DNA of 32,043 nt from assembly GCA_028822535.1 (NCBI GenBank), contig JAPKDO010000005.1:1-32043 (forward strand), given 5' to 3'. Of this stretch, positions 3,409 to 20,068 are shown piece by piece. Position numbers and translations under genes: made by a program. Below the pieces are notes generated by a model. That model did not search any database. It saw nothing but the letters and a program-made list of their open reading frames with translations, and was not told where the DNA came from. Each line of letters starts with the position of its first letter. Positions within the stretch are counted from its first letter, which is position 1. The stretch is from Acidimicrobiales bacterium. Its GTDB lineage: Bacteria; Actinomycetota; Acidimicrobiia; Acidimicrobiales; Salinilacustritrichaceae.

Positions 3409-4653
3409 ATGAGCGAGCGCCTCACCGCACATCAAGCAGTCACACGCTATTTCGAGGAAGCGGCCGCCATCATCGCCCTCGAGGACGAGATGACGGCCGT
3501 TCTCACCTCGTCCTACCGGGAGGTGGCCTCCCAGGTCCCGGTCCGTCGCGACGACGGCTCGCTGCTCGTGCTGCGCGGGTTTCGCGTCCAGCACAACGGG
3601 GCTCGCGGTCCGTACAAGGGTGGCATCCGGTACCACCCGACCGTCGATCTCGACGAGGTGCGGGCGCTCGCTTCGCTGATGACGTGGAAGACAGCGCTGC
3701 TGGACATCCCCTTCGGCGGAGCCAAGGGCGGGATCGAGGTCGACCCGACCGACATGTCGGAGCGCGAACGCGAGGCGATGACCCGCCGCTTCACGAAGTC
3801 GATCCACCACGTGTTGGGCGCCTACCGCGACATCCCCGCCCCGGACGTCAACACCAATGCCCAGACGATGGCCTGGATGATGGACGCGTACTCGCAGCTC
3901 CACGGCTACACCCCGGCCTGCGTGACCGGCAAGCCGGTGGCGCTCAGCGGAGCGCCCGGCCGAGCGTCAGCCACCGGGCGTGGAGCGATCGACGTGCTCG
4001 AGGCGTGGTGCGAACACACCGATCGCCCGATCGACGGGCTCCGGATCGCGATCCAGGGCTACGGCAACGTCGGTTCGTGGGCCGCGACCACCGCCGTCGA
4101 ACGCGGTGCCACGGTCGTCGCGGTCTCCGACGTCGGCGGCGGCGTGTACGACCCGTCGGGCCTCGATGTCCCCCTCCTGTGCAAGACGGTCGCCGAGGGC
4201 GGTTTCGTCGCCGACGCCGGCGTCGGCGAGACCATCTCGAACGACGAGTTGCTGGCGCTCGAGTGCGACGTGTTGATCCCCGCCGCACTCGGTCAGGTCA
4301 TCACCGACCAGAACGCGGCCGACGTTCGAGCTTCCGTGGTGCTCGAAGGCGCCAACTATCCGGTGACGCCTGACGGCGATGTGATCCTCAACGATCGGGG
4401 AATCGTCGTGATCCCCGACATCCTCGCCAACGCGGGCGGCGTCACCGGCTCCTACTTCGAGTGGACGATGAACATCCAACAGTTCACGTGGAAGATGTCG
4501 GTCTTCAACGACGAACTCGCGGACCGACTCCGGATGGCCTACGAGCGGACGCATGCCTTCGCCGACGCGCACGACTGCACCCTCCGTCGAGCGGCGTACA
4601 GCATCGGCGTCCAGCGCGTCGCCGATGCGGCTCGTCTCCGGGGGTACGTGTAG
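3409..4653 (+). CDS. gdhA: Glu/Leu/Phe/Val dehydrogenase family protein (glutamate dehydrogenase-like), copy 1
   Basis: A 414-residue cytoplasmic oxidoreductase that interconverts an amino acid and its 2-oxo acid using NAD(P). The N-terminal substrate domain carries GPYKGGIRYHP (K70), K94 and the catalytic-lysine motif PFGGAKGG (K106), followed by PAPDVNT. The Rossmann domain begins with QGYGNVGSWAA, and NAGGVTGSYFEW lies near the end. Length and motifs match hexameric glutamate dehydrogenases. Glutamate is the likeliest substrate, but leucine or another amino acid cannot be excluded by eye. A second family member lies at 12113-13360. The gene begins 12 bases after the SPFH stop and may be the last gene of that operon. 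Confidence 0.88.
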   Translation: MSERLTAHQAVTRYFEEAAAIIALEDEMTAVLTSSYREVASQVPVRRDDGSLLVLRGFRVQHNGARGPYKGGIRYHPTVDLDEVRALASLMTWKTALLDIPFGGAKGGIEVDPTDMSEREREAMTRRFTKSIHHVLGAYRDIPAPDVNTNAQTMAWMMDAYSQLHGYTPACVTGKPVALSGAPGRASATGRGAIDVLEAWCEHTDRPIDGLRIAIQGYGNVGSWAATTAVERGATVVAVSDVGGGVYDPSGLDVPLLCKTVAEGGFVADAGVGETISNDELLALECDVLIPAALGQVITDQNAADVRASVVLEGANYPVTPDGDVILNDRGIVVIPDILANAGGVTGSYFEWTMNIQQFTWKMSVFNDELADRLRMAYERTHAFADAHDCTLRRAAYSIGVQRVADAARLRGYV

Positions 4654-5303: not shown

Positions 5304-5774
5304 CTATCCGTACGTGAGGCGGGTGATCCAGTCGGCGACGACGGCCGGGCGGTCGACTCCTTCGATCTCGATCGTGTAGGTGCGGGTGACCTGGATGTTG
5401 TCGCCCTTGAGTTGGACGTCCTTGAGCACGCTGGTCGCTCGGATCTTCGAGCCACTCGGCACCGGCGACACGAAGCGGACCTTGTCGAATCCGTAGTTGA
5501 CACCCATCACGACGCCCTTGAACGTCTCCGGGTCCTGGGGGACCGACGAGGACAGGTGGGTCAGCATCGACAGCGTGAGGAATCCGTGTGCGATCGTTCC
5601 ACCGAACGGACTCGCCTTCGCCGCTTCCTCGTCCACGTGGATGAACTGGTGGTCGATGGTGACATCGGCGAAGTCGTTGATCCGCTCCTGCGTCATCTCG
5701 AACCACTCGCCCGTACCGTCGGTCTCGCCGACGTTGGCCTGGAACTTCTCGAATGCGGTCTCTGCGGCAGTCAT
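5304..5774 (-). CDS. MaoC-family dehydratase (hot-dog fold, NodN-like)
   Basis: A 156-residue single hot-dog protein. The (R)-hydratase catalytic signature is visible as DHQFIHVDEEAA (D41, H46), followed by PFGGTIAHGFLTLSML, in which the glycine/histidine segment lines the active site. Such enzymes hydrate trans-2-enoyl-CoA to (R)-3-hydroxyacyl-CoA in fatty acid or polyester metabolism; the substrate cannot be told. The family's usual length is about 150 residues, so the protein is complete. The ATG at 5774 is preceded by TAGGGT with an 8-base gap and no Shine-Dalgarno. It appears to be a single-gene unit, with its 3' end almost touching the YbhB gene. Confidence 0.88.
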   Translation of the reverse strand: MTAAETAFEKFQANVGETDGTGEWFEMTQERINDFADVTIDHQFIHVDEEAAKASPFGGTIAHGFLTLSMLTHLSSSVPQDPETFKGVVMGVNYGFDKVRFVSPVPSGSKIRATSVLKDVQLKGDNIQVTRTYTIEIEGVDRPAVVADWITRLTYG

Positions 5775-5782
5775 GGCGCAGG

Positions 5783-5788
5783 ACCCTA
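5783..5788 (-). promoter_or_regulatory. -10 element (TAGGGT) of the MaoC gene
   Basis: TAGGGT on the minus strand lies 8 bases before the ATG at 5774, in the 45-bp gap between two co-directional genes. The spacing fits a leaderless or near-leaderless transcript. Confidence 0.4.
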
Positions 5789-5819
5789 CGCGTGGCCGCC
5801 GGGTGAAGGGGGACTTCCC

Positions 5820-6611
5820 TCAGTCGTCGTCCTCGACTGCCTCGGCGTCGATGACGTTCTTCCCCCTGCCCCCGGCCTTGTCGGCCTTGTCGGCCTTGCG
5901 AGCAGCGCGTTGCGCTTTCAACTCGGCGACCCGATCGGCGTTCTCTGCTCGGCGGGTCTGGAACCCACCGACCCCGAGCGCGACCAGCGCCGGCAACGTG
6001 TAGATCGCGTATGCCCCACCGATGAAGAAGACGTAGCCGGCGATCGCCAGCATCGACATCGTCCAGATCGTCGAACGTTTCTCGTGTTTGGTGAAGTACG
6101 CCGCCACGCCGGTGATGACGACGGGCGTGAACATGATGAGCAGCGCGACCGGGAGGGACTCCTCGTCGAGGAGCTTGACGTCCTCGATGATCGTCGCCGT
6201 GCCGTCGTCGTTGATCTCGGGGTCATCGGCGAGTTCGACGCGCGGGTCGTCCTCGGGCACCTCGCGCTCGACCCGCACCGGCGTGAGGATCAACAGACCG
6301 ATCGAGGCGATGCTGAACAGGAAGGCCAACATGACGGCGCGCTGACCCGGGATCGAGAACGGGTTCTGCCGTCCACCCTTCGTCGGTCGTGCCGTCGCCT
6401 TCTTGCCGGCCGTCTTCTTCCCGGCCGAGCCCTTCGCTGAGTCGCCGCCGCCCGAGGTCGTCGATCCGCCCTCGGACCCGGCGTCTGCACCGCCGAGTTC
6501 GTTCGCGATCTCGGTCGCCTCCCCCGCATGGGCCGAACGCGCCTGACGCGCCTCGCGCTGCGCGCGATTGCGACGCTGCCGTTCCGCCTTGCTGGGTTTG
6601 GGAGAAGCCAC
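5820..6611 (-). CDS. Membrane protein with basic low-complexity tails, unknown function
   Basis: A 263-residue protein. The first ~85 residues are Lys/Arg/Ala/Ser/Gly-rich and probably disordered (SKAERQRRNRAQREARQARS, then GGSTTSGGGDSAKG and KKTAGKK runs). Three or four membrane helices follow (about residues 92-110, 155-175 and 187-222), with an acidic loop between the first two. The C-terminal tail (about 228-263) is charged and probably helical, ending in a run of acidic residues. No family recognised. The GTG start at 6611 is preceded by TACGGT with a 7-base gap, supporting it as a leaderless start. The basic tail could contact nucleic acid or the ribosome, but that is speculation. Confidence 0.7.
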   Translation of the reverse strand: MASPKPSKAERQRRNRAQREARQARSAHAGEATEIANELGGADAGSEGGSTTSGGGDSAKGSAGKKTAGKKATARPTKGGRQNPFSIPGQRAVMLAFLFSIASIGLLILTPVRVEREVPEDDPRVELADDPEINDDGTATIIEDVKLLDEESLPVALLIMFTPVVITGVAAYFTKHEKRSTIWTMSMLAIAGYVFFIGGAYAIYTLPALVALGVGGFQTRRAENADRVAELKAQRAARKADKADKAGGRGKNVIDAEAVEDDD

Positions 6612-6618
6612 GTCCGCG

Positions 6619-6624
6619 ACCGTA
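6619..6624 (-). promoter_or_regulatory. -10 element (TACGGT) of the 5820-6611 gene
   Basis: TACGGT on the minus strand ends 7 bases before the GTG start. It lies in the 34-bp gap after the VOC gene stop, so this gene need not depend on the upstream transcript. Confidence 0.4.
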
Positions 6625-6645
6625 GATCGCGGACCGTCGGCACCC

Positions 6646-6996
6646 CTAGCCAGGCTCGTGCAGTTCGATCATGTTCCCGGAGGGATCGTGGAGGAACGCC
6701 TGACGGCTCGGGCCCACCGGCGAGGGGTCGCCGACGGTCACCCCCTTGTCTCGGATCTCGGCAACCGCAGCGTCGAGGTCGGACACCTGCACCGCGAAGT
6801 GCTGGCCGCGGTCGTCGGGCACCGGCACCTCGAGGAGATGCACCTGCTGACCGCCGATGTCCAACCACGCCCCACCGAACCCGAAGTCGGGACGGTCGTC
6901 GCGAACACTCAGGCCCAGCACGTCGGTGTAGAACGCGATCGCGGCATCGGCATCGTGGACGTTGATCGACACGTGATGGACCCCGAGTGGCTGCAT
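6646..6996 (-). CDS. VOC-superfamily (glyoxalase/dioxygenase fold) protein
   Basis: A 116-residue single-module VOC protein with the paired beta-alpha-beta-beta-beta pattern: GVHHVSINVHDADAAIAFYTDVLGL at the N-terminus and HDPSGNMIELHEPG at the C-terminus. Likely metal ligands are a histidine in VHHVSI (H7 or H8), the histidine in QVHLLEV and the glutamate in MIELHE. The family includes glyoxalase I, thiol-transferase resistance proteins and ring-cleaving dioxygenases; the reaction cannot be assigned here. The ATG at 6996 replaces the longer ORF-track start, which runs into the alkB gene in another frame; GAGGGG precedes it. It lies 53 bp downstream of the AlkB-like gene on the same strand and could be carried on the same SOS-induced transcript. 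Confidence 0.85.
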   Translation of the reverse strand: MQPLGVHHVSINVHDADAAIAFYTDVLGLSVRDDRPDFGFGGAWLDIGGQQVHLLEVPVPDDRGQHFAVQVSDLDAAVAEIRDKGVTVGDPSPVGPSRQAFLHDPSGNMIELHEPG

Positions 6997-7049
6997 CCCC
7001 TCATCCTGCCTCGTCGGGGCGCGCCACGGCCGACCGGTCGTCTGCTGCG

Positions 7050-7658
7050 TCAGCCCAGCCAGGGCGGGCGGAACATGATCGACAGGCGAGGGCCGACCGG
7101 GCGTGCGGTCTTCGGCACACCGTGGCGCCACGTGCGTTGGATCGTCCCGCCCATCACCAACAAGTCGCCGTGGCCGAGTTCCAGCGTCCGGCCATGCCCG
7201 CCGGCGACCGGCGTCAAGCGAAAGCGTCGGCGCGCACCACACGAGACGATCGCCATCGTCGTGGTGTCCATGTCGCGGGCGATCTGGTCGCCGTGGGGGG
7301 CGACCGAATCCCGGCCGTCCCGATACCAGGCCAGTCCGATGCGGTCGCAGGGTTCGTCGTAGCGCTCGCTGACGAGGCGGCCGATCTCGTCGAGCACGGG
7401 ATGGCCGGGGCCATCGTCGGGGATCGCCGCCGTCCGTCGGGGCACGTCCACGATGCGGTCGTACATCGGCCGTCGTTGTGCCCGCCACGACGTCGAGGCG
7501 ACGAGGCCGTCGAACACCTCCTGTTCGCCGCCGAGCCAGCCGGGGAGCAGTTCGATCCACGCGCCATCGGTCAGTTCGACGTGTTCGATGCCCGAGAACG
7601 ACGCGTCCACCTCCGGTACGGACGAACCGAACAGCGTCGGTTGGAGGTCGGCGAACAC
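7050..7658 (-). CDS. AlkB-like 2-oxoglutarate/Fe(II)-dependent dioxygenase (alkylation repair)
   Basis: A 202-residue protein. AlkB enzymes remove methyl groups from N1-methyladenine and N3-methylcytosine in DNA or RNA by oxidative demethylation. The iron triad is visible as PHGDQ (H122, D124) and WRHGV (H179); the 2-oxoglutarate arginine and the trailing conserved arginine are in GPRLSIMFRP (R191, R197). LAWYRDGRDSVAPHGD corresponds to the family's NYYRDG...WHSD segment. All key residues are intact and the length is normal. The GTG start has a TAGCAT -10 seven bases upstream and a LexA-type box (7672-7685) filling the 18-bp promoter spacer, so SOS induction is expected. That box links it to dnaE2 and imuA in the same window. 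Substrate preference is not known. Confidence 0.87.
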   Translation of the reverse strand: MFADLQPTLFGSSVPEVDASFSGIEHVELTDGAWIELLPGWLGGEQEVFDGLVASTSWRAQRRPMYDRIVDVPRRTAAIPDDGPGHPVLDEIGRLVSERYDEPCDRIGLAWYRDGRDSVAPHGDQIARDMDTTTMAIVSCGARRRFRLTPVAGGHGRTLELGHGDLLVMGGTIQRTWRHGVPKTARPVGPRLSIMFRPPWLG

Positions 7659-7665
7659 GGGACGA

Positions 7666-7695
7666 ATGCTACGAACACTTGTTCGATTCCGTCAA
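7666..7695 (-). promoter_or_regulatory. SOS promoter of the alkB-like gene: -35, LexA box, -10
   Basis: On the minus strand: -35 TTGACG (7690-7695), an 18-bp spacer containing CGAAC-N4-GTTCG (7672-7685), -10 TAGCAT (7666-7671), then 7 bases to the GTG at 7658. The palindromic box matches the LexA operator known from actinobacteria and Bacillus. Its position between -35 and -10 means bound LexA would block polymerase. There is no room for a leader, so the mRNA is probably leaderless. The layout is the same as at imuA. Confidence 0.82.
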
Positions 7696-7713
7696 CCCGC
7701 GACGTCCGTTTCG

Positions 7714-7719
7714 TACCGT
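7714..7719 (+). promoter_or_regulatory. -10 element (TACCGT) of the HExxH lipoprotein gene
   Basis: TACCGT lies 6 bases before the ATG at 7726. The LexA box of the divergent alkB-like gene ends at 7685, just upstream of where this promoter's -35 should sit (about 7691), so LexA could also affect this gene, though it would not cover its -10. Confidence 0.35.
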
Positions 7720-7725
7720 GTGTGG

Positions 7726-8583
7726 ATGCTGCAACGCCGGATGCTCGTTGCCCTGTTGAGCCTGGCGTTGGTCGTCGTCGCCTGCGGGGGTGACGGCGAC
7801 GACAGCGAGACGCTCCGGGCCACCACCACGACGGCAGCGGCCGAGGCGACGACGACCACCGCGGCGCTCGACACCTCGACGCGGGCGACCAAGGATCGAC
7901 CCGACGACGATCCCGGCGTGCCGAAGGTCCACGTGCTGTACCTCACGCCGTCGGACGGCCCCGACGACCGTCTCGACACCGACGGCACGATCGCCGGGTC
8001 GATGGAGTCGGCGATGCGCTGGCTCGAGTCACAGATCGATCGACGACTCCGCCTCGACACGTTCCAGGGCGAACTCGATGTCACCTTCCACCGACTCCCC
8101 CGCACCGCGGACGAGTACTTCGCGGAGGGCGTGTTCATCCGCGACGCGATCGAGGACGACATCATCGCCGCCGGCTTCGATGCGCCACTCACCGTGTACG
8201 CCGCCTACTACGCCGGCCCGTCCGAGGACTGCGCCAGCTCATTCAACCCCGAGACCCTGCCCGGCACGTTGGTCGCCCGGTACTGGGCCCACGTCGATCC
8301 CGGCGAGGCGCCATGCGTCCCGAACGACTTCCGGGCCGCCGGCGAACCCCCGAGCACGTGGGAGTTCGGGGTGACCCATGAACTGTTCCACGCCATGGGA
8401 GCGGTCGAGACGTGCGCTCCGAATCACTTCGAGGGCCACGTCGGCGACCACCCCGACGACCTCATGTATCGAGGGGACCAGCCGTGGAAGCCGGACTCGA
8501 TCGACATCGGCAACGACGACTACTACGGCCACGGAGACCTGGACTGCACCGACGTCGCCCGCGCCCCGTACTGGGCGTCGTAG
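7726..8583 (+). CDS. Putative secreted lipoprotein with zinc-metalloprotease (HExxH) motif
   Basis: A 285-residue protein. A signal peptide ends in the lipobox VVAC (C20), followed by a Thr/Ala-rich linker (about 30-55) and a globular domain. THELFHAMGAVE (H218, E219, H222, G225) is an HExxHxxG zinc-protease motif, and DLMYRG (M247), about 25 residues later, could be a Met-turn as in metzincins. The usual third metzincin ligand position is E228 rather than His or Asp, unless H234, H238 or H242 is used. Six cysteines in the mature part could form disulfides. The ORF track starts at 7453, but the signal peptide and the -10 place the start at 7726. It is transcribed away from the SOS-controlled alkB-like gene. 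The exact family and substrate are unknown. Confidence 0.72.
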   Translation: MLQRRMLVALLSLALVVVACGGDGDDSETLRATTTTAAAEATTTTAALDTSTRATKDRPDDDPGVPKVHVLYLTPSDGPDDRLDTDGTIAGSMESAMRWLESQIDRRLRLDTFQGELDVTFHRLPRTADEYFAEGVFIRDAIEDDIIAAGFDAPLTVYAAYYAGPSEDCASSFNPETLPGTLVARYWAHVDPGEAPCVPNDFRAAGEPPSTWEFGVTHELFHAMGAVETCAPNHFEGHVGDHPDDLMYRGDQPWKPDSIDIGNDDYYGHGDLDCTDVARAPYWAS

Positions 8584-8601
8584 TCCCGACGGGCGGGCGC
8601 C

Positions 8602-11600
8602 TCAGCGGAAATCCCGACTCTTCGGGACGTTGCCGTTCACCGGCAGGAACGACAGACGCTCGGCCACGACGTTGATCACCCCCTCGCTGCGTTCGCATCG
8701 TCCACGGATGAGCATGGCGGGAGCGGTGAGCGCTACCCGCCGATGAGCGTTCCAGCACCCCTTCGACACCACGACGTTGATGAGCCCCGTCTCGTCCTCG
8801 AGGTTGAGGAACATGGTCCCGCCCGCGGTCGCCGGACGCTGGCGATGGGTCACCACGCCGCCGATGAGCACCTTCGACCCCGGCTCGACGTCCCACAGTC
8901 CGGCGCTCGTCACCACCCCCATGCGGTCGAGTTCGTCGCGGATGAACCTCGTCGGATGCCCCTCCGGACTCATCCCCGTGGCCCAGAGGTCGGCCCGAGC
9001 GGTCTCGAAGTCGTCCATGCCCGGCAGCGGCGGCGGCTGGTCGCCGGTGACGATTCCCGGCAACCGGTCGGCCCCTCCCTGGGCGACGGCACCGGCTTGC
9101 CAGATCGCCTCTCGCCGCTCCAGGCCGAAGCAGTCGAACGCCCCCGCCGTCGCCAACGCCTCGAGCTGGGACAACGTGAGCTCGACCCGACGGGCCAGGT
9201 CCTCCATCGAGGCGAACGGCCCCCTGGTCTCGCGCTCGGTGGCGATCTCCCGGGCCAGGTCGACCCCGATCCCCCGTACCTCCCGGAACCCGAGCTGCAC
9301 CACCGCCCCTTCCGATTCTCCCCACGAGAACTCCCCGGTTTCCGGGGCGTTCTCACAGGAATTTTCGGAGGGTACGGGTGGGGCAGGGAGGAGGGTGGCG
9401 TCGGCGAGAGAGGTGTTGCAGTCGACGGTGCGGACCTCGACGCCGTGGCGACGGGCGTCCTGGATCAGCGAGTGGGGCGACCAGAACCCCATCGGCTGGG
9501 CGTTGAGCAGGCCGGCGCAGAAGGCGGCGGGGTGGAAGCGCTTGAACCACGACGAGGCGTAGACGAGGTAGGCGAAGGAGACCGAGTGACTCTCGGGGAA
9601 GCCGTAGTTGGCGAAGGCGGCGAGCTTGACCCAGATCTCCTCGATCACGTCATCGGGCACCCCCCGCTCCCGGGCGCCCGTGCGGAAGCGGTCGTGGAGA
9701 CGCTCCATCCGTTCGGGCGAACGCTTCGACCCCATGGCCTGCCGGAGCTGATCGGACTCGGACGCGGTGAATCCGCCGACGTCGATCGACATCTGCATGA
9801 GCTGTTCCTGGAACAGCGGGATCCCCAAGGTCTTCTCCAACGACTTCTCGAGCAACGGGTGGAGATACGTGATCTCCTCCTGGCCGTTGCGCCGACGGAT
9901 GTAGGGGTGGACCGAACCGCCCTGGATCGGGCCGGGCCGGATGAGCGCCACCTCGACCACCAGGTCGTAGAACGTGCGGGGCTTGAGTCGGGGCAGCGTC
10001 GCCATCTGGGCGCGCGACTCGATCTGGAACACGCCCACCGTGTCGGCCTTGCACAACATGTCGTAGACCTCGTCGTCCTGGGGCAACTCGGCGATGTCGA
10101 TGTCGACACCGGTCGACTCGCGCACCAGGCGCACCGTCTCGTGCAGCGCGGTGAGCATCCCGAGGCCGAGCAGGTCGAACTTCACGAGACCGACTGCGGC
10201 ACAGTCGTCCTTGTCCCACTGGAGAACAGAACGGATCGGGACCTCGCTGCGAACCGTCCCGCCGTCGCGCCCGGTGAAGCGGCCCCACTCGACCGGGCAG
10301 ACCTCCACCACGGGACGGTCGCACAGGACCATGCCCCCGGAGTGGATGCCCAGGTGACGGGGAAAGTGCTCGACCTCGGCCGCCATCGCCAGGACATCGT
10401 CGGGCAGTTGGTTGAGCCCCTCCTTCTGCTGGTCGGCCGAGGTCTTGACCCCACCCCACGCGTCGGCGGACTTCGAGAACGCGTCCTGTTGGCCGGTGGC
10501 ATAGCCGAGCGCCTTGGCCATGTCCCGGATCGACGACTTGGCCCGGTAGGTGATGACGTTGGCGACCTGGGCGGCGTGGCGGCGGCCGTGGCGCTCGTAG
10601 ACGTACTGGATGACCTCTTCTCGTCGGTTCGACTCGATGTCGATGTCGATGTCGGGCGGCCCGTCGCGCTCGGGCGACAGGAACCGCTCGAACAACAACC
10701 CGAGCTTCACGGCGTCGGCCTTGGTGATGCCGAGGGCAAAACACACGGCCGAGTTGGCGGCACTCCCCCGGCCCTGGCAGAAGATGTCGGACCGGCGGCA
10801 GAAGTCGACGAGGTCCCACACGATCAGGAAGTAGCCGGGGAACCCGAGTGTCTCGATCAGGGCGAGTTCGTGGTCGATCTGTTCCCATGCCCCCGGCGTG
10901 TTCGGTCGGGAACGCGGCCCGTAGCGACGCTCGGCTCCCGCTTCGGTGAGCCGGCGGAGGAAGCCCATCTCGGACATCGGTCGACCGTCCGGCCCGTCGG
11001 GGCACGGGTACGGCGGCAGGTTGGGCGCGACCAACTGCAGGTCGAAGGCGCAGGCCAGGCCGAGCTCGGCCGCCCGTTCGACGGCCCCGGGGTACCGGGC
11101 GAAGCGGCGGGACTGTTCGACGCCCGACCGGAGGTGCGCCGTCGCTGCAGGCGGGAGCCAACCGTCGGCACCCTCGAGATCGCGACGTGCCCGCACGGCG
11201 GCGAGCGCTGCGGCGAGGGGACGTTCGGCCGGCGTGGCGTAGTGGACGTTGTTCGTCGCCACGACCTCGACGCCGACCCGCCCCGAGATCTGCGCCAGCG
11301 CGTCGTTGCGGGCCGAGTCGAGCGGGTCGTGGTGATCCCACAACTCGACCACCACGTTGTCGGGACCGAAGGTGTCGACGAGCCCTCGCAGGGCGTGTTC
11401 GGCCGCGGCCGGGCCGTGGTCGACCAACGCTCGATTGACCGCACCCTTCCGACAGCCGGTGAGGACCAGCCAGTCGCCACCGTGCGCACGCGACCAGTCG
11501 ATCGAGTCGTAGTCGGGCTTGCCCTTCATCCCCCCGGCGAGCTGTGCCGAGGAGATGACATCGGCGAGGCGTGCGTAGCCCGCGGTGCCCCGAGCGAGGA

Positions 11601-12051
11601 CCAACAGGTGCGAACCCTCGGGGTCGGGCACGCCGTTCTGCGGTTGGCTCAACCCCAGCGACAGCTCGGCCCCGAAGACCGTGGGCAGCCCGACCTCACG
11701 CGCGGCCTGCGAGAAGCGGACCACGCCGTAGAAGCCGTCGTGATCGGTGAGCGCCAGCGCCTCGAGCCCGAGCCGCGCCGCCTCCTCCGCCAGCGCCTCG
11801 GGGTGCGACGCGCCGTCGAGGAACGAGAAGTTCGAGTGGCAGTGGAGTTCGGCGTAGGGCACCGCCCCGCGTCGTCGCTCGAGTCCGGTGGGCGCCGAGT
11901 ACTCGGGCCGGCGATACGACCACGCCGGACTGTCGCCCCCGTCTCCCTCCGCGCGTGTGGGCTTGCGATGCCGCGCCCCCTCGGGAGATCGGCTGTCGGA
12001 GAGCGTCCGTTCCAGTTCGGACCAGGAAACCCCTGGGTTGTTGAACCCCAC
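8602..12051 (-). CDS. dnaE2: Error-prone DNA polymerase III alpha subunit DnaE2
   Basis: A 1149-residue C-family polymerase that bypasses DNA damage with ImuA and ImuB and causes SOS mutagenesis. In order: a short N-terminal segment with DGGDSPAWS typical of actinobacterial DnaE2, a PHP domain starting AELHCHSNFSFLDGAS (about 67) with LTDHDG, the polymerase core with GRGSAANSAVCFALGIT and the catalytic aspartates in PDIDIDIES (about D468, D470), helix-hairpin-helix GIGVDLARE, and a C-terminal OB domain (VLIGGVVTHRQ). It ends in SRDFR, a DnaE2-type C-terminus. The ORF track starts at 12339; the GTG at 12051 is preferred because MGFNNPGVSWSELE matches family N-termini and a -10 lies 8 bases upstream. 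Two LexA boxes precede it. It converges with the metalloprotease gene, 18 bp away. Confidence 0.95.
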   Translation of the reverse strand: MGFNNPGVSWSELERTLSDSRSPEGARHRKPTRAEGDGGDSPAWSYRRPEYSAPTGLERRRGAVPYAELHCHSNFSFLDGASHPEALAEEAARLGLEALALTDHDGFYGVVRFSQAAREVGLPTVFGAELSLGLSQPQNGVPDPEGSHLLVLARGTAGYARLADVISSAQLAGGMKGKPDYDSIDWSRAHGGDWLVLTGCRKGAVNRALVDHGPAAAEHALRGLVDTFGPDNVVVELWDHHDPLDSARNDALAQISGRVGVEVVATNNVHYATPAERPLAAALAAVRARRDLEGADGWLPPAATAHLRSGVEQSRRFARYPGAVERAAELGLACAFDLQLVAPNLPPYPCPDGPDGRPMSEMGFLRRLTEAGAERRYGPRSRPNTPGAWEQIDHELALIETLGFPGYFLIVWDLVDFCRRSDIFCQGRGSAANSAVCFALGITKADAVKLGLLFERFLSPERDGPPDIDIDIESNRREEVIQYVYERHGRRHAAQVANVITYRAKSSIRDMAKALGYATGQQDAFSKSADAWGGVKTSADQQKEGLNQLPDDVLAMAAEVEHFPRHLGIHSGGMVLCDRPVVEVCPVEWGRFTGRDGGTVRSEVPIRSVLQWDKDDCAAVGLVKFDLLGLGMLTALHETVRLVRESTGVDIDIAELPQDDEVYDMLCKADTVGVFQIESRAQMATLPRLKPRTFYDLVVEVALIRPGPIQGGSVHPYIRRRNGQEEITYLHPLLEKSLEKTLGIPLFQEQLMQMSIDVGGFTASESDQLRQAMGSKRSPERMERLHDRFRTGARERGVPDDVIEEIWVKLAAFANYGFPESHSVSFAYLVYASSWFKRFHPAAFCAGLLNAQPMGFWSPHSLIQDARRHGVEVRTVDCNTSLADATLLPAPPVPSENSCENAPETGEFSWGESEGAVVQLGFREVRGIGVDLAREIATERETRGPFASMEDLARRVELTLSQLEALATAGAFDCFGLERREAIWQAGAVAQGGADRLPGIVTGDQPPPLPGMDDFETARADLWATGMSPEGHPTRFIRDELDRMGVVTSAGLWDVEPGSKVLIGGVVTHRQRPATAGGTMFLNLEDETGLINVVVSKGCWNAHRRVALTAPAMLIRGRCERSEGVINVVAERLSFLPVNGNVPKSRDFR

Positions 12052-12059
12052 GCCGTTCG

Positions 12060-12099
12060 ATGGTATGCGAACACCCGTTCGTTGTCGAACAGGTGTTCG
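12060..12099 (-). promoter_or_regulatory. SOS promoter of dnaE2 with two LexA boxes
   Basis: On the minus strand: LexA box 1 CGAAC-N4-GTTCG at 12086-12099, box 2 at 12068-12081, then -10 TACCAT at 12060-12065 and 8 bases to the GTG at 12051. Box starts are 18 bp apart, so the two operators lie on nearly the same helix face. Box 2 fills the spacer and box 1 covers the weak -35 (TTCGAC or TCGACA). All of this fits in the 61 bp after the upstream dehydrogenase stop. Confidence 0.82.
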
Positions 12100-12112: not shown

Positions 12113-13360
12113 CTACGGGAAGATGCCCCTCGTCGCCATCGCTGCCGCCACTCGCTCGAGTGCCAACGCGTACGCCGACCGCCGCAGGCTGACGTCCCAG
12201 CGCTGTCCAGCAGCCCAGACGTCGGTGAATGCGTCGGACATGACCCGATGGTGGCGATCGGCGACGAGGTCTTCCTCCCACGGGAACCCCTGACGGGCCT
12301 GGGCCCACTCGAAATAGGAGGCGGTGACGCCACCGGCATTGGCGAGTACGTCGGGGACGACCGTGATCCCGCGGCGATCGAGCACCTCGTCGGCCTCGGG
12401 CAACGTCGGGCCGTTGGCCGCCTCGACGATCACCTTCGCCTTCACCCGCTCGGCCACGGCGGCATCGATCACGCCGCCCAGTGCGGCCGGGATCAGCAAT
12501 TCGCAGTCGACTTCGAGGACATCGCCGGCATCGATCGGATCGCCCAGCGGGAAACCGGCCACTCCCCCGGTCTCGATCACGTGATCCGACAACGCCGCGG
12601 TGTCGAGGCCGCCCTCGTTGATGACCGCGCCCGTGACGTCGCTGACCGCGACGACACGCATGCCGGCCGACTGCAACAGATAGGCCAGTGGTCCGCCGAC
12701 CTTGCCGAAGCCCTGGATCACGGCGCGTCGCCCGGGGAGTTCGATGCCGAGCGCCTCGAACGCTGCCCGCACGCACACCACGACGCCGGCCGCAGTGCCG
12801 CCGGCGTGGGCACGCGTCCCGCCGACCGACAGCGGCTTGCCGGTCACGGCCCCGGGGAGGTGGACGCCGCCACCGGTCATCTGCAGCGTGTCGAGCAACC
12901 AGGCCATGACCCGGCCATCGGTGTTGACGTCGGGCGCGGGAATGTCGCGGTCGGGGCCGAGCACCGGCGAGATCTCGAGCGTGTAGCGGCGGGTCAGGTG
13001 TTCGAGTTCGTTGAGCGACAGTGACCGCGGATCGACCCGCACGCCGCCCTTGGCCCCGCCGTAGGGCAGACCGCACACGGCGGTCTTGATCGTCATCTGC
13101 GCCGAGAGCGCACGGACCTCGTCGGCATCGACGGCGGGGTGGAAGCGGATCCCACCCTTGCCCGGACCGCGCACCGTGTTGTGATGGATGCGCCAGCCGG
13201 TGAAGACCTCGACAGACCCGTCGTCACGTCGGACCGGGACGGAGACCTCCATCACCCGTTCGCACCGACGCACCATCGCGTGGATGCTCGGATCGATGTC
13301 GGCCACCTTCACCGCATCGTCGATGCGGTCCAGCACAGCGTCCCACGGACCAGCGTCCAC
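12113..13360 (-). CDS. Glu/Leu/Phe/Val dehydrogenase family protein (glutamate dehydrogenase-like), copy 2
   Basis: A 415-residue paralogue of the product at 3409-4653. The substrate-domain lysines are present: GPGKGGIRFHP (K68), K92 and LPYGGAKGG (K104), with PAPDVNTDGRVMAW. The nucleotide domain starts at IQGFGKVGGPLAYLL, and NAGGVTASYFEWAQ follows near the C-terminus. Differences from copy 1 (for example QGFGKVGG against QGYGNVGS) suggest separate roles, such as NAD against NADP use or catabolic against anabolic direction, but this cannot be decided by eye. The GTG start at 13360 is preceded by CACACT six bases upstream, a weak -10. The gene sits directly upstream of the dnaE2 promoter on the same strand. 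Confidence 0.87.
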   Translation of the reverse strand: MDAGPWDAVLDRIDDAVKVADIDPSIHAMVRRCERVMEVSVPVRRDDGSVEVFTGWRIHHNTVRGPGKGGIRFHPAVDADEVRALSAQMTIKTAVCGLPYGGAKGGVRVDPRSLSLNELEHLTRRYTLEISPVLGPDRDIPAPDVNTDGRVMAWLLDTLQMTGGGVHLPGAVTGKPLSVGGTRAHAGGTAAGVVVCVRAAFEALGIELPGRRAVIQGFGKVGGPLAYLLQSAGMRVVAVSDVTGAVINEGGLDTAALSDHVIETGGVAGFPLGDPIDAGDVLEVDCELLIPAALGGVIDAAVAERVKAKVIVEAANGPTLPEADEVLDRRGITVVPDVLANAGGVTASYFEWAQARQGFPWEEDLVADRHHRVMSDAFTDVWAAGQRWDVSLRRSAYALALERVAAAMATRGIFP

Positions 13361-17720: not shown

Positions 17721-19343
17721 TCAGTCATAGGTGGCGGCCACGCTCCAGCGACCACGTTCGAGCACCACGAGTCGGGCGGTGCCGTCGTCGGTCACCACCT
17801 GGAACCGGGCTCGTCTGGAGTGACGCTCGGGATCCCACCAGCGCTCGTCGACCGGCCACGGCCCCGCCCAGGAATCGATCCGATGGGACCGGCCGTCGAC
17901 CCGCAACCGTTCGGGGGGCGCCGTGGGCGTGCACCTCCCGTCGACCATCACCACCCGTCCGGTGCCGTCGAGCACGTCGACCGGGAGTGGCTGTGGGTGG
18001 ACGGTGGCCGGCGACGGGTTCGGGAGCCGACCGGGCCAGGGAGCAGCCACCCAGTCGGCGTGCACGGCGGGACGATCGGCGGTGAGATCCACGGCGCCGG
18101 CGGGAACGAGGCGTAGTTGTTCGTCGGGGTCGCGACCCCCGGCGTACTCGGGCACCGACACTGCGTCGGCGCCGAGCAGGCCCTGCACCCGGGCGATCGC
18201 CCGTACGGCCCGATCGGCCGCCCCCGTGTCGCGCCCGCCGAACCCCTCCCCCGGGAGGCCGAGCTGGCGTCCGTCGGCCGCCACCACCTCGTCGGGGTGC
18301 AGTTCCAGGTGGACGATGCCGGCGGTGGGACGCTGACGGACCGAGGCGTTGATCCAGCCGTCGAGCTGCCAACGGACCCGGTCGGCGATGGCCCCGGCGC
18401 CGAGGCCGCTGGTGCCGGTCGACCCGGCGGAGGAACTCTCGGCGTGGCGCCACACCCGCTCGGACCGCTCGCCGTTCTCGGTCTCGGCGATCACGACGAG
18501 GCGGGTGCACACCGAACCACGAGCGTCGAGTCGTCGGTGGAGTTCGTCGGCAAGGCCGCGTGCCACGAACGCGGCCGGCGCCACCTGGTCGGCCGGCGGG
18601 TCGAGCTCGGCCGAGACCACGAGGTCGAGCGGTGGCGGTGCCGTCCGCAGAGGCCGGGCGTCGAGCCCGCGGGCGAGGCGATGGGCCTCGGCCCCCGCCG
18701 GGCCGAACCGCCCCAGCACATCGGCGGCCGGGAGCGCCGCGAAGTCTCCGAGGGTGTGGAGACCGAGCCGTCGGAGCACATCGGCGAGGTCGGGCTGTTC
18801 GAGCGCCGTCAGCGACAACGGAGCCAGATACTCGGCGACGCTGCCCGGCTCGACGATCCAGACCGGCGGATCGCCCCGTTGCGCGGCGACGTAGGCGGTT
18901 CGGGCTGCGTGCTCGGCGGCGAAGGGACCATCGGCCACCCCCACCATCACCGGCTGATCGACCGCTGCGACGACCCGATCGGCCAGCGCCCGATCGCCAC
19001 CGAAATAGCGCGACGGCCCGAGGGTCGGGAAGGCGCACCGGCCGGGGCGGGTGATCTCGACGCGCGGGGTGAACGCCTCGAGCGCCTGGACGACCGGTTC
19101 GAACATCCGGGCGTCGCGCTCGACATCGCGGTCGAGCACCCGGAGCGACGGGCATCGAGCCTGGGCCTCACGCCGTCGCATGTGCCGGCGCACGTCGGCC
19201 GCCCGTGCCGCTGCAGTGCAGGCCACCACCCGGTTGGCCACGAACACGGCGGCCGGTTCGTCGGCCGGGACTCCAGCAGCGAACAACGGCCAGTCCGGCA
19301 CCCAGACCGTCATCACCCTGGCGGGAGCGGCGGGGTCAGGCAT
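17721..19343 (-). CDS. imuB: ImuB, inactive Y-family polymerase-like mutasome subunit
   Basis: A 540-residue protein. ImuB is the hub of the SOS mutasome: it lacks polymerase activity but binds the sliding clamp, ImuA and DnaE2. The N-terminal Y-family-like region starts VMTVWVPDWPLFAAG, where active polymerases have their first catalytic Asp in a different motif. The fingers/thumb region includes LGLHTLGDFAALPAADVLGRFG with a helix-hairpin-helix. QLGLPG (360-365) is in the place of the clamp-binding motif (QLxLW in relatives), and the C-terminus RWSVAATYD matches ImuB ends. The ATG lies inside the imuA stop region (8-base overlap), so translation is coupled and transcription comes from the imuA SOS promoter. 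Confidence 0.93.
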   Translation of the reverse strand: MPDPAAPARVMTVWVPDWPLFAAGVPADEPAAVFVANRVVACTAAARAADVRRHMRRREAQARCPSLRVLDRDVERDARMFEPVVQALEAFTPRVEITRPGRCAFPTLGPSRYFGGDRALADRVVAAVDQPVMVGVADGPFAAEHAARTAYVAAQRGDPPVWIVEPGSVAEYLAPLSLTALEQPDLADVLRRLGLHTLGDFAALPAADVLGRFGPAGAEAHRLARGLDARPLRTAPPPLDLVVSAELDPPADQVAPAAFVARGLADELHRRLDARGSVCTRLVVIAETENGERSERVWRHAESSSAGSTGTSGLGAGAIADRVRWQLDGWINASVRQRPTAGIVHLELHPDEVVAADGRQLGLPGEGFGGRDTGAADRAVRAIARVQGLLGADAVSVPEYAGGRDPDEQLRLVPAGAVDLTADRPAVHADWVAAPWPGRLPNPSPATVHPQPLPVDVLDGTGRVVMVDGRCTPTAPPERLRVDGRSHRIDSWAGPWPVDERWWDPERHSRRARFQVVTDDGTARLVVLERGRWSVAATYD

Positions 19344-20031
19344 GCAGGGGCACCGGATCGGCCACCACCGACTCGACCCACCCGTCGATCGACGGAAGCC
19401 ACAGTTCGGCGCGGCGCGGCCGCGACGCCTCGCGCCGTCCGCCGCCGACCACCGTCACCCGACGCGACCGCAGGTGTCCGTACCCGTCGGCCAGACCCTC
19501 CCACCGAGCGTCGGTCACCTCGAGGGTGACGTCGGCACCCTCGGACCACCCCGACGAGCCGACCTGCACCAGCACCGCACCCCGCTCCCGGGTACGGGCG
19601 GCGAGCCGACGGCCGTCGCGCGCCTTGACCCGATGCGTGGCCTGCACCAACACGACCTCGAACGCGTCGACCAGCGCGGCGACCGCAGCCGCCCAAGCCG
19701 TCTCCTCGTTGTCGGGGCCGATCTCGGTGTCGGGTGATGCGACCAGGACGAATCGTTCGAGGGCGATCCCGAGTTCGGCCGCGGCCAGGAGTCCGAGCGA
19801 CGGGAACCCGACCGCAGCGACCCAGGCCCCGTCCTGCGACGCGGCAGCCGCTGCAGCCAGAGCGAGCGACGTCGCTGCCGGGCCGTCGGTGGCCAGCGTC
19901 GATCCCCGTCGCAACCCCCCGCCGGGGATCAGCGACGCGAACGCGGGGAGGACCGGGAGTCGCTGTTCACGAGCGAGCGCAATCGGCTGGATCTGCTCGA
20001 CCAGCGCTGCTGCGACCTCCGCTCGACCCAT
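19336..20031 (-). CDS. imuA: ImuA (RecA-like mutasome subunit, actinobacterial type)
   Basis: A 231-residue RecA/SulA-like protein that works with ImuB and DnaE2 in mutagenic bypass. The RecA-like layout is visible (SLIPGGGLRRGSTLA, then a beta strand and helix), but the Walker A position reads DGPAATSLALA (49-59) with no GKT, so nucleotide binding is probably lost, as in other actinobacterial ImuA' proteins. The assignment rests strongly on context: it overlaps imuB by 8 bases and has a near-perfect SOS promoter. The ATG at 20031 lies 7 bases after a GATACT -10 without Shine-Dalgarno. Some annotators would label it only as a RecA-like or hypothetical protein. Confidence 0.87.
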   Translation of the reverse strand: MGRAEVAAALVEQIQPIALAREQRLPVLPAFASLIPGGGLRRGSTLATDGPAATSLALAAAAAASQDGAWVAAVGFPSLGLLAAAELGIALERFVLVASPDTEIGPDNEETAWAAAVAALVDAFEVVLVQATHRVKARDGRRLAARTRERGAVLVQVGSSGWSEGADVTLEVTDARWEGLADGYGHLRSRRVTVVGGGRREASRPRRAELWLPSIDGWVESVVADPVPLHA

Positions 20032-20038
20032 GCCGACC

Positions 20039-20068
20039 AGTATCGAACACCTGTTCGATACTCGTCAA
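20039..20068 (-). promoter_or_regulatory. SOS promoter of imuA-imuB: -35, LexA box, -10
   Basis: On the minus strand: -35 TTGACG (20063-20068), 18-bp spacer, -10 GATACT (20039-20044), 7 bases, ATG. The box TCGAACAGGTGTTCGA lies at 20043-20058 and its symmetry extends to perfect 11-bp arms across 20039-20062, so it takes in the -10 itself. The -35 contains the TGA stop of the upstream beta-propeller gene. It is the most symmetric LexA site in the window. Confidence 0.88.

Follow-up and report, generated by a model that had tools for sequence, protein, structure and literature searches.

An alkB-like gene with a LexA box in its promoter and a conserved clamp-like N-terminal motif in an Acidimicrobiales genome

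In Escherichia coli, alkB is regulated by Ada and not by LexA. A LexA-type palindrome immediately in front of an alkB-like gene of an Acidimicrobiales bacterium hence raises the question of whether the direct reversal of alkylation is here a part of the SOS response and, if so, how the enzyme would relate to the error-prone polymerases that are induced at the same time. The window, i.e., the entire stretch of DNA analyzed, is a whole contig (G000:C451; 32,043 nucleotides) of a 4.06-Mb draft genome. The locus comprises the following elements:

7050..7658, minus strand: alkB-like gene, GTG start, 202 amino acids (PF13532, PDB profile search, AlphaFold2, and Foldseek)
7666..7671, minus strand: -10 hexamer TAGCAT of alkB
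7672..7685, unstranded: LexA box CGAACAAGTGTTCG, of the actinobacterial type CGAAC-N4-GTTCG, with perfect palindromic half-sites
7690..7695, minus strand: -35 hexamer TTGACG of alkB, starting at 7695, which is also the upper end of the interval picked out by an earlier, sequence-only reading of this DNA

An AlkB-family dioxygenase nearest to ALKBH3 and ALKBH2

The product of the alkB-like gene matches the PF13532 model with 43.5 bits against a cut-off of 31.2, and the five residues from which the sequence-only reading had recognized an intact AlkB-like protein (H122, D124, H179, R191, and R197) are invariant in both an 18- and a 44-sequence alignment of AlkB proteins, so that this claim is borne out. 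The protein displays the HxD...H iron triad, the RxxxxxR 2-oxoglutarate motif, and the jelly-roll fold by which AlkB-family dioxygenases are recognized. An NCBIfam search supplied no family name for it, and a PDB profile search identified ALKBH3 and ALKBH2 as its nearest solved structures without reaching E. coli AlkB at E<=0.001. With the AlphaFold2 model (mean pLDDT 89.5), Foldseek ranked ALKBH3 and ALKBH2 first (TM score of about 0.75 to both), followed by E. coli AlkB. The window AlkB is thus an Fe(II)/2-oxoglutarate dioxygenase that is closest in both sequence and fold to ALKBH3 and ALKBH2, and its intact active site suggests that it would act as an oxidative demethylase, the 1meA/3meC-directed activity that characterizes the AlkB family.

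A predicted LexA operator within the alkB promoter

The sequence 5' of alkB reads TTGACG-GAATCGAACAAGTGTTCG-TAGCAT-TCGTCCC-GTG, in which the 18-nt spacer is mostly filled by the LexA box and the end of the box abuts the -10 hexamer. The location of a LexA box between the -35 and -10 elements, as originally claimed, is therefore confirmed by a perfect box. TTGACG-N18-TAGCAT is the only sigma-70-like promoter found in positions 5500-9500 (0.2 expected), and the transcript is probably leaderless because the GTG start at 7658 lies only 13 bases 3' of the box. The E. coli-type LexA box (CTGT-N8-ACAG) was also considered and rejected, its occurrence being no higher than chance.

Perfect CGAAC-N4-GTTCG boxes are rare in the genome (24 in 4.06 Mb, against none for the reversed control pattern). 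Four of them are found in the window, where 0.19 would be expected, and all four are directly upstream of alkB (one), dnaE2 (two), or imuA' (one). The mutasome genes and their operators are as follows:

8602..12051, minus strand: dnaE2, error-prone DNA polymerase (NF004225, 1422.6 bits against a cut-off of 939), with a GTG start inferred from a congener and from the box position
12068..12081, unstranded: LexA box 1 upstream of dnaE2
12086..12099, unstranded: LexA box 2 upstream of dnaE2
17721..19343, minus strand: imuB, inactive Y-family polymerase homologue (PF00817, IMS)
19336..20031, minus strand: imuA'-like gene overlapping imuB, a probable assignment from this overlap, its size, and its LexA box; a Pfam search of the product gave no match
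20044..20057, unstranded: LexA box upstream of imuA'-imuB, with TTGACG just before it, as at alkB

The single lexA gene of the genome (219.6 bits against a cut-off of 110.95) has several GAAC-N4-GTTC sites in front of it, including two perfect 14-mers, and a perfect box also precedes a gene that reads as ruvC, named by eye rather than by a family search. The presence of the same box before lexA itself, ruvC, and other genes indicates that CGAAC-N4-GTTCG is the genome's own SOS operator. The alkB box is of this type and overlaps the promoter, as is expected of a member of the LexA regulon. Elsewhere in the genome, a perfect LexA box begins 7 bases ahead of the start of each of two similar genes (L167 and L173); reading their products by eye, we take them for DUF222/HNH-type proteins. 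Similar HNH proteins are SOS responsive in Mycobacterium tuberculosis.

Relatives were sampled in three ways, namely, as order-mates, as a genome-wide collection, and as a phylum sample drawn with the Pfam model; start codons were chosen by rule, and sites were scored by matches out of 10 positions, with 9 or 10 counted as a box. In raw tallies that ignore relatedness, such a box is present in 18 of 25 usable group-A AlkB genes of the order-mates (12 of them perfect) and in 38 of 80 loci from the genome-wide collection (16 perfect), the latter loci being the best matches to the query and not a random sample. Random 180-nt windows from the same 80 loci yield a box of at least 9 in 1.4% and a perfect one in 0.06% of cases. 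True boxes lie mostly about 35 bases before the alkB start codon, and some of the 9/10 boxes further upstream are probably chance matches. In the phylum sample, both the box and the N-terminal motif described below are seen again. No box at 9/10 is found in the remaining 7 of the 25 order-mates and in many of the 80 loci, some of which may be accounted for by a different LexA motif, and none is found in the 12 genes of a paralogous clade, clade B. The search upstream of orthologues that the sequence-only reading had recommended as a check thus reveals a box that is conserved in relatives, at about -35, as expected of a LexA regulon; this is contrary to the outcome that would have refuted the claim, a box shared with no relative. 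In three Chloroflexota (L050, L068, and L070), box-like sites (AGAACGTACGTTCT, CGAACGTACGTTCT, and CGAACGAGCGTTCT) occur 28 bases before the alkB start, which suggests that these genes too may be SOS controlled.

That the box is a chance palindrome, with alkB being constitutive or under another alkylation regulator, could be argued from the commonness of loose GAAC-N4-GTTC matches in the genome (97), but the rarity of perfect boxes, their concentration at SOS genes of the window, and their conservation in relatives make this explanation exceedingly improbable. The position of the box, its recurrence at SOS genes, and its conservation at orthologues instead argue for the proposed direct control of alkB by LexA.

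The comparison with congeners provides a further perspective on this control. One congener is "Acidimicrobiia bacterium EGI L10123," whose AlkB is identical to that of genome G002. In the congener locus L046, the gene order is the same as in the window, and the alkB start lies inside the dnaE2 stop codon (ATGA); here alkB has no box of its own, and a perfect box precedes dnaE2. In the window, dnaE2 and alkB are separated by a lipoprotein gene (7726-8583, plus strand), and a box of its own precedes alkB. SOS control of alkB therefore appears to have been kept within the genus by two different wirings, its own box in one case and overlap with a boxed dnaE2 in the other. Since linkage of alkB with dnaE2/imuAB was found in the flanks of the 80 database loci only in L046, this neighborhood is a genus-level feature and not a general one. 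The earlier suggestion of a link between alkB and mutagenic bypass gains strength from the presence of the mutasome genes on the contig of alkB and from the dnaE2-alkB overlap in the congener. The window also contains two glutamate dehydrogenase genes (3409-4653, plus strand, and 12113-13360, minus strand), roughly 8 kb from each other, both of which match one place in L046.

The divergent lipoprotein gene offers another potential target for the box, which lies 41-54 bases upstream of its ATG at 7726 and would then fall in the alkB promoter as a by-product of the geometry. We consider this very unlikely, given that the box is kept upstream of alkB in relatives, that nothing in the syntenic region of L046 matches the lipoprotein gene, and that the promoter hexamers are directed toward alkB. 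With its start 41 bases from the box, this gene might nevertheless be SOS controlled in addition to alkB. Its product contains a metallopeptidase-like HELFHAMG (HExxH) motif and has no Pfam or NCBIfam match.

A conserved motif in the N-terminal tail

Beyond its operator, the alkB gene encodes a short conserved element that the sequence-only reading had missed:

7629..7643, minus strand: codons 6-10, QPTLF, N-terminal tail motif Q-x-[ST]-L-[FL], predicted to bind the beta clamp

Residues 1-10 of AlkB form a flexible coil outside the fold (mean pLDDT of 54 in the AlphaFold2 model). Q6 and L9 do not vary in any of 44 sequences, which come from Actinomycetota, Chloroflexota, and Myxococcota; position 8 is occupied by S or T in 43 of them and position 10 by F or L in 42, and the flanking tail positions vary (entropies of 2 to 3 bits). 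A looser version of the pattern is present in 79 of the 80 database loci, again as best matches to the query, against 4.6 expected from a tail-shuffling permutation, and the strict pattern was never found beyond residue 30 in these loci. Clade B branches beside L028 and L038, both of which have perfect boxes and motif-like tails (QGSLL and QGNLL), and has the motif in 0 of its 12 members; motif and box are absent together in this clade. Two distant box-less AlkBs (L134 and L135) have the N-terminal tails QPDLF and QPPLF. The motif is thus not confined to SOS-controlled genes, and such a clamp-like element may be wider in distribution than the SOS-controlled AlkB group.

The consensus for binding the beta clamp is Q-phi-x-[L/M]-[F/L], with position 2 being the most tolerant, and in Hda the clamp motif is located in a disordered N-terminus (PMC11139829). 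The AlkB motif fits this consensus at four of five positions; its position 2, where Leu is preferred, is in most cases G, P, A, S, or T, and Pro, Gly, or a small residue there may lower the affinity for the clamp. The genome possesses dnaN, and the window ImuB has a candidate clamp motif of its own (QLGLPG, residues 360-365). An alternative view accepts the SOS control and has the motif dock on some other partner, as tail motifs can do, or on AlkB itself, perhaps by closing over its DNA-binding face. The departure of position 2 from the published consensus in most members would favor such a role, as would the open-access literature searched, which yielded no experiment linking a bacterial AlkB to the clamp and no report of a clamp motif in one, the mentions found being of APIM/PCNA or unrelated (PMC3265494 makes no statement on the clamp). 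Weighing against it are the location of the motif in coil that is modeled with low confidence and is not part of the fold and the match of the Q-x-x-L-[F/L] pattern to clamp motifs, of which the Nannocystis tail (QLPLF) is close to ideal. We regard this alternative as a serious possibility that falls somewhat short of being probable. On balance, binding of the beta clamp by the AlkB tail seems more probable than not, and this strictly conserved clamp-like tail seems to be the new part of the system.

Our preferred scenario, which we hold with moderate confidence, is that LexA cleavage induces an ALKBH2/3-like oxidative demethylase and that this enzyme is tethered to the sliding clamp together with ImuB-DnaE2. 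In the undamaged cell, LexA on the box between the -35 and -10 elements would block RNA polymerase at alkB. Upon DNA damage, RecA filaments would trigger the self-cleavage of LexA, and alkB would be expressed along with dnaE2 and imuA'-imuB. QPTLF in the short flexible tail would then dock in a hydrophobic clamp pocket, the one that the ImuB-DnaE2 mutasome uses, and so bring direct alkylation reversal to stalled forks, where the enzyme would either work beside the mutasome or compete with it. The chances are roughly even for a more general version, wherein a universal N-terminal peptide tethers bacterial ALKBH2-like AlkBs to the clamp, so that SOS-induced error-free reversal contends with mutagenic bypass for a single docking site, in the manner of ALKBH2 on PCNA by an unrelated motif. 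If the tail does bind the clamp, alkylation reversal would be coupled to translesion synthesis in space as well as time, and antibiotics aimed at the clamp, of which griselimycin is one, would block AlkB docking too.

Relationship to known systems

The alkB gene of Streptomyces venezuelae (vnz_32390) is described as a core LexA target with 11-fold induction (PMC9380542), and that of M. tuberculosis (Rv1000c) as induced by mitomycin C in a RecA-dependent manner (PMC8151990). These genes belong to the LexA/RecA regulon, as the window alkB appears to, the likeness being at the level of the gene family, and the excerpts of the two accounts drawn upon here mention no clamp motif. Thus, the contrast with E. 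coli that had been drawn from the sequence, i.e., SOS in place of Ada, is supported for this gene but is not new: placement of alkB under SOS control is an accepted feature of actinobacteria and had been described for the phylum before. What our analysis adds is the extension to an Acidimicrobiia-like lineage, the dnaE2-alkB overlap seen in one congener, and a clamp-like tail that is nearly invariant. The window alkB further differs from the above two in sharing one contig with dnaE2 and imuA'B.

The dnaE2, imuA', and imuB genes under LexA boxes in the window make up the same set as the mycobacterial ImuA'-ImuB-DnaE2 mutasome, in which the ImuB clamp motif QLPLWG is essential (PMC10421592); its candidate counterpart in the window ImuB is QLGLPG. 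The literature searched contained no description of AlkB as a part or neighbor of the mutasome. E. coli AlkB shares the fold and catalytic residues of the window AlkB and ranks lower in the fold comparison than human ALKBH3 and ALKBH2, which have about 25% identity to the window AlkB. The E. coli gene belongs to the Ada regulon, and nothing ada-like was seen among those genes of the window that were examined. ALKBH2, after which the PCNA-binding APIM motif is named, presents a parallel to the proposed sliding-clamp tethering of the window AlkB. The two differ in that the motif of the latter is of the bacterial clamp kind (Q-x-x-L-F) and not an APIM, as well as in the predicted SOS control. If the tethering is true, it would constitute a bacterial counterpart, by way of a different peptide, of the recruitment of ALKBH2 to PCNA.
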